Shown piece after piece: positions 32,501-36,245 of a stretch of DNA of 64,000 nt (within the stretch, counting starts at the first letter, position 1; each line of letters starts with the position of its first letter). Source of the stretch: Flavobacterium sp. CF108 (GTDB taxonomy: Bacteria; Bacteroidota; Bacteroidia; Flavobacteriales; Flavobacteriaceae). Position numbers and translations under genes: made by a program. The notes under the pieces are model-generated. The model did no database searches. It was not told where the DNA came from and saw only the letters and a program-made list of their open reading frames with translations. The stretch spans positions 434,001-498,000 of the forward strand of contig NZ_FQWW01000004.1 of the NCBI RefSeq assembly GCF_900129795.1, in the 5' to 3' direction.

Positions 32501-32731
32501 CTAAGTCTCTTTTACAGTAATGATCTTAACCGGACAAGCCTTTGCTGCCAATTCACAGCTTTCTACAATTGTATGATTTGGTGATTTTAATGTAAAAAAG
32601 CCTTTTGCATTTACAGAATGAATCAAAACCGATTTCCCGTCTTTTTTTGACATCTGAAAATGTACCGGATCCATTTCGACACAGTAATTACAGCCAATGC
32701 ATTTATCTCTTTGTAAAGTAACAATAACCAT
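32501..32731 (-). CDS. Single-cluster [4Fe-4S] ferredoxin
   Basis: 76 residues. Cys11, Cys14 and Cys17 form a CxxCxxC group (DKCIGCNYCVE), and a distal Cys in KACPVKI completes one 4Fe-4S site. A further Cys in ESCELA lies nearby. Its start shares a base with the stop of trhP, so the two are translationally coupled. I infer that it supplies electrons to the Fe-S cluster of the U32 protein or to its reaction. No direct evidence for that partner exists in sequence alone. Confidence 0.83.
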   Translation of the reverse strand: MVIVTLQRDKCIGCNYCVEMDPVHFQMSKKDGKSVLIHSVNAKGFFTLKSPNHTIVESCELAAKACPVKIITVKET

Positions 32732-33972
32732 TATGCCTCAACAATTTTATATAATTTGTCCGACATTCTGATTCTAAAAGGAAGTTTAAATGTACAATCA
32801 TCTCCTTTTGTTGCTTTTTCAGCTTCAAGATCGTTTACAAACATTTCATCGATAATCATTTCCTGAGCGCCTGTACTTGGTCCTGTTACCAGAATTTTAT
32901 CTCCAATTTTAATATCGTAAGCTTCAATTTTGAATTGACCTACATTGGCTTTCGGGAAATAATGTGTTCCTTTTCCAACATAAACTTTCTTCTGTGTTGC
33001 AGCAGATCCTGGAATAGCACTCCACTCGCCTAATTCTTGTCCCAAATAATACCCTGACCAGAAACCACGATTGTAAACAGTTTCTAAAGCCTGCATCCAA
33101 AATGTGATTTTTTCTTTTGTGAAAGTCCCTTCGTAATACGCATCAATTGCTTCACGATATGTTTTGATAACTGTTGCCACATATTCTGGCGCACGGCCGC
33201 GGCCTTCAATTTTTAAAACCTGAATTCCCGAATCTATAACCTGATCTAAGAAATCCAGTGTACATAAATCTTTCGGTGACATCATGTATTCGTTATCGAG
33301 TTCGATTTCAAAACCCGTTTCCTGATCGATAACCGTATATTTTTTTCGGCAGTTTTGTTTGCACGCACCACGATTTGCCGATGAATTATGCGAATGCAAA
33401 CTCAAATAACATTTTCCTGAAACCGCCATACACAAAGCTCCGTGTCCAAAAATCTCGATCTCTACCAAATTTCCGTTTGGACCTTTTATCTGTTCTTTCT
33501 CAATTTGGGCCGTAATGTTTTTTACTTGACGTAAGCTCAATTCCCGGCTTAAAACCATAGTATCAGCAAATAAACTGTAGAATTTTATGGTTTCGATATT
33601 GGTTACATTCAGCTGAGTTGAAATATGAACTTCCATTCCAATTGATCGTGCCATTGCAATTACAGCTTGATCAGATGCAATTACGGCTGTAATGTTTACA
33701 TCTTTGGCTTTGTTCAATAATGTTTTTACGACTGATAAATCGTGATCGTAAATAATAGTGTTTAAAGTAAGATAGCTTCGAACGTTTTTTGCTTCGCAGC
33801 GATTGGCTATTTCTTTTAAATCTTCTACTGTGAAATTTACCGTTGAACGCGCACGCATATTGAGTTGTTCTACCCCAAAGTAAATAGAATCTGCACCATT
33901 ATCTAGTGCTGCCTGAAGTGACTCAAAACTCCCCGCAGGAGCCATGAGTTCAATTTTGTTAGTAAGTATCAT
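32731..33972 (-). CDS. trhP: U32 peptidase-family protein, tRNA U34 5-hydroxylation protein TrhP
   Basis: 413 residues. The U32 core begins ELMAPAGSFESLQAALDNGADSIYFGV. The four Cys of the U32 cluster site (Cys181, Cys188, Cys204, Cys208: GALCMAVSGKC, RGACKQNC) are intact. The final segment, residues 328-413, is the U32 C-terminal domain. In E. coli, TrhP makes 5-hydroxyuridine at tRNA position 34 using prephenate, and Fe-S biogenesis is required. Despite the family name, it is not expected to be a protease here. Downstream ferredoxin overlaps by one base. TrhO, the oxygen-dependent alternative enzyme, is encoded upstream on the same strand. Confidence 0.87.
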   Translation of the reverse strand: MILTNKIELMAPAGSFESLQAALDNGADSIYFGVEQLNMRARSTVNFTVEDLKEIANRCEAKNVRSYLTLNTIIYDHDLSVVKTLLNKAKDVNITAVIASDQAVIAMARSIGMEVHISTQLNVTNIETIKFYSLFADTMVLSRELSLRQVKNITAQIEKEQIKGPNGNLVEIEIFGHGALCMAVSGKCYLSLHSHNSSANRGACKQNCRKKYTVIDQETGFEIELDNEYMMSPKDLCTLDFLDQVIDSGIQVLKIEGRGRAPEYVATVIKTYREAIDAYYEGTFTKEKITFWMQALETVYNRGFWSGYYLGQELGEWSAIPGSAATQKKVYVGKGTHYFPKANVGQFKIEAYDIKIGDKILVTGPSTGAQEMIIDEMFVNDLEAEKATKGDDCTFKLPFRIRMSDKLYKIVEA

Positions 33973-34020
33973 TTTTATTTGTATTTTTTTTGCTAATAAC
34001 TGAAACTATAGGTAATGATT

Positions 34021-34190
34021 ATAGCGTGGTATTTTTATTGTTTTTCAAGATAGCCGAAGATTCAACCTTGCAAGATGTATTATCGTTGTGGATATTCGTT
34101 GCGTTCCTGCGGTTAAAACCGCAGGCTATGTTTTTCCTTTGCACATGTTGTTTCAATATAGCCCGTGGTTTCAACCACGGGAAACGTATT
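34021..34190. repeat. REP-like composite element, copy 1 (CCCGTGGTTTCAACCACGGG family)
   Basis: A 170-bp unit starting ATAGCGTGGTAT and ending GGGAAACGTAT. It contains the hairpins CCTGCGGTTAAAACCGCAGG and CCCGTGGTTTCAACCACGGG. A near-identical copy follows at an offset of exactly 224 bases. Both lie 3' of RAYT 2. Together they fill the gene-free stretch 33973-34427. Confidence 0.85.
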
Positions 34191-34244
34191 GATGAGCATA
34201 TTTCTATATTCCAACAGTTAAAGTTAAAACCATTGACAATGGTT

Positions 34245-34414
34245 ATAGCGTGGTATTATTATTGTATATAAAACTGCAAAACGTTCAACCTTGTAAAACG
34301 TATTATCGTTGTGGATATTCATTGTGTTCCCGCGGTTGAAACCACAGGCTATGTTTTTCCTTTGCCCATGTGGTTTCAATATAGCCCGTGGTTTCAACCA
34401 CGGGAAACGTATCG
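34245..34414. repeat. REP-like composite element, copy 2 (CCCGTGGTTTCAACCACGGG family)
   Basis: Second copy of the 34021-34190 unit, same order of hairpins, with the first hairpin slightly degraded (CCCGCGGTTGAAACCACAGG). It ends 14 bases before the 3' end of the RAYT 2 gene. Confidence 0.85.
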
Positions 34415-34427
34415 TTGAATCAAGCAA

Positions 34428-34862
34428 TCATTTATCTCCCAACCCATGCAATTTTATAAAATCATCAAATTCATCTTGACCATTTTTCTTAAGATGATGT
34501 TGCTTTTGATTTTTAATGTAATTGTAAGCAGCATCTAACTGGGATTCGCTGACAGAGAATGCCGCAAAACCAGTTTGCCAAGCAAATTTTTCAAGGATAA
34601 ATTCTCCTCTATTCATAAAATGAGAAGAACTTCCTTTAATTTGCTTAACAATGTCTGAAACAGTTTTTTGTGGATTTTGTAAAAATAAGACATGCACATG
34701 ATCTGGCATTCCATTGATGATTCTAACGGGACATCCAAGTTCAGTCAGCTCTAGCCAAATAAAATCGTACAATGTTTTCTCAATTGAAAAATCAATTAAT
34801 TCCTGACGATTTTTGGTTGCCCAAATTGCATGAGTCCATAATTTGGTATAGGATTGTGACAT
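34428..34862 (-). CDS. REP-associated tyrosine transposase (IS200-like), RAYT 2
   Basis: 144 residues. HUH motif PDHVHVLF (His55, His57, the same register as RAYT 1) and catalytic Tyr in AAYNYIKNQKQHH (Tyr113/Tyr115). A conserved QIKGSSSHFMN block is intact. Alignable along its length with RAYT 1, but clearly diverged, and associated with a different palindrome family (34021-34414). There is no TnpB. It starts 24 bases after the trhO stop on the same strand and separates trhO from trhP, so it probably entered a former trhO-trhP neighbourhood. Confidence 0.88.
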   Translation of the reverse strand: MSQSYTKLWTHAIWATKNRQELIDFSIEKTLYDFIWLELTELGCPVRIINGMPDHVHVLFLQNPQKTVSDIVKQIKGSSSHFMNRGEFILEKFAWQTGFAAFSVSESQLDAAYNYIKNQKQHHLKKNGQDEFDDFIKLHGLGDK

Positions 34863-34866
34863 AAAT

Positions 34867-34893
34867 AAATTAGCATAAAATTTATGCTAATTT
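34867..34893. repeat. Perfect 13-bp-arm palindrome overlapping the trhO stop
   Basis: AAATTAGCATAAA, one base, then its exact complement. It spans the last codons of trhO and ends just before the RAYT 2 start codon. It could be a hairpin at the trhO 3' end or a regulatory or target hairpin of RAYT 2. Confidence 0.6.
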
Positions 34894-36245
34894 AAAATTT
34901 TATACAACTTATCTGACAAACGAATACGAAAAGGAACCTCAAAAGTAACCTTATCACCAATTTTTGCAGTTGTAGTTTCAGCACCATCAACAATAAATTT
35001 GTTTAAAATCAATTCTTGTTCACCCGTTGTTGGTCCAGTAATAAGGATTTTATCGCCAATGTTTAATCCGTGGTTTTCAATAGTAAACTGTCCCACTTGA
35101 GCTTTTACATAATAATGTTCTGCTTTTCCAAGAAGTACTTTTTTTACTTTTACTTTTTGACGAATATCAACTTGTTTTTCGGCTGCTGCCAATGCAGTAT
35201 TTGGCAGCTCGCCTGAATGTTTGAATTTTAGATTTTCAGATTTTCCTTTTCTAAACACTTTGTTTCCAACTTGTTTTCCAGTTCTTAAACGAACTTGGTC
35301 AACCAAAGGCATATGAATAATTTCCAAACATTCTGTAGAACAACAGTTTTCCATTGCAGCTTTACAATCATCACATTGAATAAACAATAAATGACAACCG
35401 TCATTTTCGCAGTTTGTGTGATTATCGCAAGGTTTTCCGCATTGGTGGCATTGTGAAATAATATCATCCGTGATTCTTTCACCAAGACGATTATCAAATA
35501 CAAAGTTTTTACCAATGAATTTACTTTCTAAACCTTCCGCTTCAATTTGTTTAGCATAATTAATGATTCCGCCTTCTAACTGAAACACATTTTTAAAACC
35601 TTGGTGTTTAAAATAAGCACTAGCTTTTTCGCAGCGAATTCCTCCGGTACAATACATTACCAGATTTTTATCTTCTTTATGGTTTTGAAGCTGTTCGTTG
35701 ATTATGGGTAAACTTTCTCTAAACGTTTCAACATCTGGAGTAATCGCATTTTTAAAATGTCCAACTTCACTTTCATAGTGATTTCTAAAATCAACAACGA
35801 TAGTGTTTGGATCATCTAAAATCTCGTTGAATTCTTTGGCTTTCAAGTGAACGCCAATATTAGTTACATCAAAAGTATCATCATTCAAACCGTCGGCAAC
35901 AATTTTGTGACGCACTTTAATAGTCAATTTTAAAAACGAATGGTCATCATGTTCTACAGCTTCATTCAAACGAATGCCTTTCATGAAATCATAAGCTTCA
36001 AGAGTTGTTCTAAAAGCCTCCAAATTTTCTTCCGGAATACTCATTTGAGCATTTATTCCTTCATTGGCAACATAAATTCGGCCTAAAGCATCAAGTGCAT
36101 TCCAGGCTAGAAATAAATCATCACGAAATTTTTTGGGATCTTCAATTTTGGCATACGCATAGAAAGACAACGTAAGACGTTGTTTACCTGCATCATCGAT
36201 CATGACAGCTCTTTCTTCTGCGCTCAAAGTGTTGTACAGTTGCAT
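34887..36245 (-). CDS. trhO: Rhodanese-family tRNA U34 hydroxylase TrhO with extra U32-type C-terminal domain
   Basis: 452 residues, about 100 longer than E. coli TrhO. Residues 1-130 form the N-terminal acylphosphatase-like domain; the rhodanese domain has catalytic Cys199 in VMYCTGGIRCEKAS. A Cys-rich zinc-type segment follows (residues 266-306, CHQCGKPC to CCSTEC), as in TrhO. TrhO makes 5-hydroxyuridine at U34 using oxygen. Residues 368-452 are an addition: they match TrhP residues 328-413 at about 48 of 85 positions by hand count (shared blocks VGQF, IGDKIL, PFRIR, SDKLYKI). The gene order places both enzymes together. Confidence 0.88.
   Translation of the reverse strand: MQLYNTLSAEERAVMIDDAGKQRLTLSFYAYAKIEDPKKFRDDLFLAWNALDALGRIYVANEGINAQMSIPEENLEAFRTTLEAYDFMKGIRLNEAVEHDDHSFLKLTIKVRHKIVADGLNDDTFDVTNIGVHLKAKEFNEILDDPNTIVVDFRNHYESEVGHFKNAITPDVETFRESLPIINEQLQNHKEDKNLVMYCTGGIRCEKASAYFKHQGFKNVFQLEGGIINYAKQIEAEGLESKFIGKNFVFDNRLGERITDDIISQCHQCGKPCDNHTNCENDGCHLLFIQCDDCKAAMENCCSTECLEIIHMPLVDQVRLRTGKQVGNKVFRKGKSENLKFKHSGELPNTALAAAEKQVDIRQKVKVKKVLLGKAEHYYVKAQVGQFTIENHGLNIGDKILITGPTTGEQELILNKFIVDGAETTTAKIGDKVTFEVPFRIRLSDKLYKILN

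Follow-up and report, generated by a model that had tools for sequence, protein, structure and literature searches.

TrhO and TrhP have been described as two independent routes to one and the same tRNA base. As for their layouts in E. coli, the sections of Sakai et al. 2019 (PMC6599085) on which we draw give TrhP with the domain PF16325 and TrhO with Rhodanese and Rhodanese_C, and state that the CXGGXR active-site loop is needed for hydroxylation by TrhO. In the excerpted part of an F. psychrophilum transcriptome study (PMC9723704), the rhodanese-related YceA falls into a promoter class that is induced by low nutrients. Neither a TrhO with a C-terminal tail nor a TrhO::TrhP fusion is described in the titles and opening lines of abstracts of the open-access literature that we searched.

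We analysed a 64,000-nt stretch of the Flavobacterium sp. CF108 genome (contig NZ_FQWW01000004.1, positions 434,001 to 498,000; hereafter the window), in which a tailed trhO, a transposase gene, a U32 gene and a ferredoxin gene lie side by side (Table 1). The TrhO protein scores 266.5 bits against the TrhO equivalog model NF001133 (cut-off 170), and its CTGGIR loop (residues 199-204) does not vary among 27 aligned tailed TrhO; by family membership, it is a predicted maker of ho5U34 from O2. A solved relative, PDB 9j5o (‘tRNA uridine(34) hydroxylase’), matches residues 18-307. E. coli-type TrhO (YceA) likewise consists of the N-terminal domain, rhodanese, Rhodanese_C and the CTGGIR loop, with 53% identity over query residues 3-335 (best 10 of 59 matching records in a plasmid collection), but it lacks the barrel: in these ten records the match is confined to residues 3-335, and none of the 59 covers 80% of the window TrhO. 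The sequence-only reading was thus right that the segment is absent from E. coli TrhO.

Table 1. Positions of the genes and protein parts discussed (numbering of the window)
Feature	Position	Strand	Remarks
4Fe-4S single-cluster ferredoxin	32501..32731	(-)	Pfam Fer4_13 E 1.1e-11; start overlaps U32 gene end by one base
U32-family protein, TrhP-like	32731..33972	(-)	413 aa; Pfam PF01136 E 2.1e-69
C-terminal barrel of the U32 protein (other copy), residues 328-411	32740..32991	(-)	BLASTP match to TrhO tail
Duplicated unit after transposase gene	34003-34418		spacing ~223 bp, palindromes CCCGTGGTTTCAACCACGGG
Y1-type (IS200-like) transposase gene, between trhO and U32 gene	34428-34862		REP-associated model matches more weakly
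trhO, oxygen-dependent tRNA uridine(34) hydroxylase with C-terminal extension	34887..36245	(-)	452 aa; NCBIfam NF001133
Putative U32_C / EF-Tu domain 2-like beta barrel (tail), TrhO residues 366-452	34890..35150	(-)	U32-tail identity 57%; model pLDDT 92.3
Variable linker, TrhO residues ~321-365	35151..35285	(-)	length and sequence differ among relatives
Rhodanese_C, TrhO residues 245-306	35328..35513	(-)	Pfam PF12368 E 2e-21
Rhodanese domain with CXGGXR loop, TrhO residues 136-231	35553..35840	(-)	Pfam PF00581 E 1.6e-12
UPF0176_N acylphosphatase-like domain, TrhO residues 25-115	35901..36173	(-)	Pfam PF17773 E 8.9e-23

Residues 368-452 of TrhO, which together with the stop codon do occupy 34887-35144, had been matched by hand to the end of the U32 protein at about 48 of 85 positions. 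BLASTP aligns TrhO 368-451 with U32 328-411 without a gap (48/84 identical, 63/84 positive, 104 bits, E 7e-29), the second-best local match between the two proteins having an E-value of 0.97, and every one of the conserved blocks that had been listed (VGQF, IGDKIL, TGEQE/TGAQE, PFRIR and SDKLYKI) is present. At E <= 10, the tail as query found no third copy in the window's own genome, only the TrhO and U32 places.

When modelled by AlphaFold2 from an alignment of the window tail and 85 related tails, the tail is all-beta, with six strands of at least three residues. Its best structural match is 4he5, a C-terminal domain from a Geobacillus U32 protein (Z 14.4, rmsd 1.2, 80 residues), with 4he6 second at Z 13.5; the Foldseek E-values of the two entries are 2.8e-5 and 5.5e-5. 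The fold of this Geobacillus thermoleovorans domain is that of the TrhO tail, but the sequence identity is 15-18% and the domain is part of a U32 protein, not of a rhodanese hydroxylase. Next, with Z between roughly 10 and 12, come IF2 C-terminal domains, eIF5B, EF1A and EF-Tu domain 2. These barrels share the fold of the tail but belong to GTPases, and the fold likeness alone is no proof of tRNA binding in TrhO.

At E <= 1, GTP_EFTU_D2 matches 32 of the 86 aligned tails (best 7.1e-8) and Peptidase_U32_C (PF16325) matches 29 (best 5.7e-5); for the window's own tail, Pfam gives nothing over the cut-off, and neither of the two profiles matches it at E <= 1. Aligned by hhalign to E. coli TrhP alone, the tail profile scores weakly (E 0.0079, probability 5%). 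By fold, the matches to 4he5 and 4he6 place the window's own tail in Peptidase_U32_C. Taken together, sequence and model identify the TrhO tail as a U32 C-terminal beta barrel, a domain common to TrhO and the U32 protein as had been proposed. A model of full-length TrhO has high pLDDT in the tail (88 to 91 in most ten-residue blocks) and mostly values below 50 in the linker (residues 321-336 and 343-365), which is probably a flexible tether; with a poor pTM of 0.46, this model gives no reliable domain arrangement.

How widespread is the tailed TrhO? Among 296 Bacteroidota genomes, 162 of which have TrhO, it is found in 24: 18 Flavobacterium and six members of a second family, f5. The other TrhO frames listed in this sample are at most 386 aa long, and the tail matches listed elsewhere lie apart from TrhO. 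Twelve further TrhO genomes of the sample include ten with no tail match and two (G234, G241) with the tail on a U32 protein. Within the sample, U32 proteins of many families have the barrel, and TrhO of two families only. None of 12 fetched TrhO loci from other genera of the window's family is tailed; the U32 gene adjoins trhO in four of them.

We then turned to 199 Flavobacterium genomes, some of them incomplete. TrhO is present in 192, a tail match in 193, a U32 body in 86 and the ferredoxin in 87. By tally, 188 of the 192 TrhO genomes have a tailed TrhO; the four exceptions are G339, where the contig ends at the linker, the tailless G472, and two gene fusions (G450 and G468). G472 and G339 are the only short TrhO frames among the Flavobacterium rows listed. 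Two or more tails are present in 82/85 genomes with both TrhO and the U32 gene, and where TrhO is present and the U32 gene was not found, a tail match is still seen in 106/107. Single genomes deviate: G380 has three tail matches, G404 has two with the U32 gene not found, G451 has a tail match without a TrhO body, and the U32 gene of G473 seems broken, with the body match in a 231-aa frame and the tail match in a separate 240-aa frame.

TrhO is encoded by 67 of 148 genomes and 7 of 33 genera of family f5, to which Halpernia and Frigoriflavimonas belong and, we infer, Chryseobacterium and Epilithonimonas as well. The frame is long in 66 of the 67; the only short one (G565) has a distant body (61% identity). 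The TrhO of Myroides pelagicus is also tailed. Among the 80 named loci that best match the tailed-TrhO query, a share biased by that query, 79 are tailed and one (L224) is cut by the contig end. A metagenome-assembled genome titled Rhizobium sp. (L202) has a tailed TrhO of the Flavobacterium/f5 group at 80% identity; its title is probably wrong.

In a TrhO body tree of 108 rows, one branch (SH-aLRT 94) sets all tailed rows apart; a tailless row, a contig-edge row and the two fusions fall within the same group. The separation of tailed Flavobacterium and f5 bodies from the tailless TrhO of other genera has a support of 100 after five rows were dropped. The backbone of the full tail tree (155 rows) is weak, with 63/72 at the root as drawn; TrhO tails require two changes on this tree, with one long U32 tail (L158) among them. 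In a tree reduced to 112 rows, from which near-duplicates, 14 rows on long branches and one short row had been taken out, a branch with support 100 separates the TrhO tails from the rest, and another (96) separates TrhO tails and 22 Flavobacterium U32 tails jointly from 18 other U32 tails. The reduced tree is the product of a quick, non-optimal search: a constrained tree beat the free one by 8.7 log units, and in this better tree the TrhO tails are grouped with every U32 tail from the window's family. Both the single origin of the tail and the precise identity of its donor rest on short alignments.

Since the barrel is found, across the phylum sample, in U32 proteins of many families and in TrhO of two only, the tail most likely passed from a U32 gene to trhO, which gives a direction to the gene-to-gene domain transfer suggested by the sequence-only reading. 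We favour one transfer, most probably in the lineage leading to Flavobacterium and with the adjacent U32 gene as the donor. A second, independent origin had been prompted by eight U32-less loci (L065, L066 and L068-L073) whose TrhO tails are 58-72% identical to the window's U32 tail; it was not upheld, the TrhO tails lying on one side of a branch of the reduced tree. Nor did we find signs of recent copying or ongoing conversion between the two tails: own-genome identity exceeds cross-genome identity by a mean of only 0.57 points, and the own-genome pair is the single best one in 0/24 genomes. As to family f5, a single Flavobacterium TrhO clade separate from f5 was not rejected by the AU test (p 0.47), and holding Flavobacterium U32 bodies together with those of the three f5 genera that have tailed TrhO gave p 0.216. 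It is plausible, though only suggested by the sequences, that the tailed TrhO reached f5 by transfer, and the same may hold for its presence in Chryseobacterium-type bacteria and Myroides. In seven loci (L120-L123, L125, L126 and L050) the TrhO body goes with the window's clade and the tail with the other Flavobacterium type, which suggests recombination inside trhO between species.

The two fusion genomes each encode a single 792-aa frame made up of the TrhO body, a short junction, the U32 domain and one terminal barrel, and the ferredoxin gene follows it. Pfam places UPF0176_N, Rhodanese, Rhodanese_C and Peptidase_U32 on the same chain. The junction keeps a methionine at the U32 start, and an internal translation start within the fusion is possible. 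In G472, the TrhO frame is 359 aa long, has no tail and adjoins a U32 gene. Since the fusions (L061 and L062) and the tailless L112 form a clade nested among tailed TrhO (body tree, SH-aLRT 92), the TrhO barrel was probably lost in the clade of the fusions and G472. The same nesting makes the fusions an unlikely source of the TrhO tails. The fusion's single barrel would then serve both enzymes.

The sequence-only reading had called the U32 neighbour TrhP. In favour of this, it has the U32 domain, aligns over nearly its full length with E. coli TrhP (E 9.7e-42), and its C181, C188, C204 and C208 do not vary in 36 aligned proteins. It scores only 203.4 bits against the TrhP equivalog model NF011996 (cut-off 534), and unlike TrhP (YegQ; Peptidase_U32 plus Peptidase_U32_C) it has a tied ferredoxin gene and a barrel in common with TrhO. 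Because of the missed cut-off we call it TrhP-like; that it is TrhP, making ho5U34 from prephenate, is uncertain. It could instead be another U32 enzyme, such as a hydroxylase of rRNA or other RNA, with the barrel as a general RNA-binding part of U32 proteins and no mark of a common substrate. In the sections of Sakai et al. 2019 (PMC6599085) cited here, U32 proteins comprise 12 subfamilies, three of which act on 23S rRNA, and TrhP occurs mainly in beta- and gamma-proteobacteria, all of which, like the low equivalog score, fits this alternative. The near-full-length alignment with E. coli TrhP, the adjoining of trhO and the U32 gene in two families and their whole-gene fusion favour a shared pathway instead, and we consider the alternative the less probable of the two, though a serious one.

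The ferredoxin is present in 86/86 Flavobacterium genomes with the U32 gene, as opposed to 1/113 without, and in that one genome it lies 36 bases from the contig start. The ferredoxin therefore belongs to the U32 enzyme, a genetic tie that agrees with the coupling noted earlier from gene order, and it is a candidate electron donor to that enzyme. In Flavobacterium circumlabens (L174), an intact tailed trhO is accompanied by a transposase gene and a partial ferredoxin, and the U32 gene is absent from the fetched stretch; this is possibly a U32 gene loss caught part-way.

What does the tail do for TrhO? We calculated dN/dS for 49 non-independent pairs with body dS of 0.15 to 1.0. The tail is under purifying selection, also where the U32 gene was not found: its median omega is 0.086 in 14 pairs with the U32 gene absent from the fetched locus and 0.110 in 16 pairs that have it, the medians for the TrhO body being 0.037 and 0.041, respectively. 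As it is kept without the U32 gene, the tail is neither a passive relic nor solely a contact to the U32 protein. Some translation-factor barrels contact tRNA. Docking of tRNA is the likeliest role of the tail, a reading that builds on the likeness to translation-factor folds, on conservation and on the persistence of the tail where the U32 gene was not found.

We lean, with some reserve, towards the following explanation as a whole: the neighbouring U32 gene gave TrhO its tail domain in one event, and there the domain serves as an RNA-docking module on a tether. The barrel of the U32 (TrhP-like) hydroxylase would have been acquired, most probably once, in a Flavobacterium ancestor; attached through the short variable linker, it would hold the substrate tRNA for the rhodanese active site, and the same barrel would hold RNA likewise for the U32 enzyme. 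It does not depend on the U32 protein, given that it is kept and selected where the U32 gene was not found. In one lineage, both genes have become fully fused, with TrhO's own barrel absent and a single barrel left. The ferredoxin goes with the U32 enzyme, not with TrhO, and would deliver electrons to it. Against this explanation stand the weak backbone of the tail tree and the non-optimal reduced tree, as well as the tailless TrhO beside a U32 gene in G472 and the TrhO of other genera, which manage without a tail.

The barrel could also mainly stabilise or fold TrhO, or tune its turnover, with no RNA contact. The catalytic part can evidently stand alone, since E. coli-type TrhO and that of other genera are tail-free, and the linker is variable, both of which suit such a role; invariant glycines, H377, R440, R442 and D445 across the 27 aligned tailed TrhO and the closest folds (U32_C and translation-factor barrels) suit it poorly, and we regard it as unlikely. 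Lower still we rate a protein-protein contact, in which the like barrels pair and bring TrhO and the U32 enzyme into one complex: the two genes adjoin in many Flavobacterium and f5 loci and are completely fused in two genomes, but TrhO and a tail match persist in 106 Flavobacterium genomes where no U32 gene was found, and tail omega is no higher in pairs lacking the U32 gene than in pairs that have it. Self-association of TrhO as a homodimer through the barrel is possible. That the likeness arose by chance, or that every TrhO has the domain, is practically refuted by the BLASTP E-value of 7e-29 and by the lack of a TrhO tail in 138 of the 162 sampled TrhO genomes and in E. coli-type TrhO.

A transposase gene related to the one between trhO and the U32 gene lies beside trhO in L003, L004, L065, L072, L102 and L103 and in 10 of the best 80 named loci. 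Downstream in the pathway, no match to CmoB over the cut-off was found in the window's own genome, which does encode a PF01596 methyltransferase that might act once ho5U34 has been made (L242, C19:192758-193351). The better of the two PF01596 methyltransferases in this genome has no NCBIfam match at 1e-10, so TrmR is unproven.

In this study we have described a domain that most likely moved between enzymes of the TrhO and TrhP kinds, which in two genomes are fused. In the parts of the open-access literature that we covered, we found no answer as to the role of the U32 C-terminal barrel and no named redox partner for the U32 hydroxylase class. The natural deletion and fusion variants offer a way to ask what the barrel does, and the pattern of gene loss links one specific ferredoxin genetically, and with unusual clarity, to a U32 hydroxylase. 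More tentatively, the barrel may be a portable tRNA-docking module by which two hydroxylases of unrelated chemistry, a rhodanese that uses O2 and a U32 Fe-S enzyme that does not need it, reach the same tRNAs; in some Flavobacterium, a 792-aa bifunctional protein with one barrel might then modify U34 across the whole oxygen range. Finally, that the tail is kept after the neighbouring gene has gone suggests that it does useful work for TrhO, perhaps in holding tRNA.
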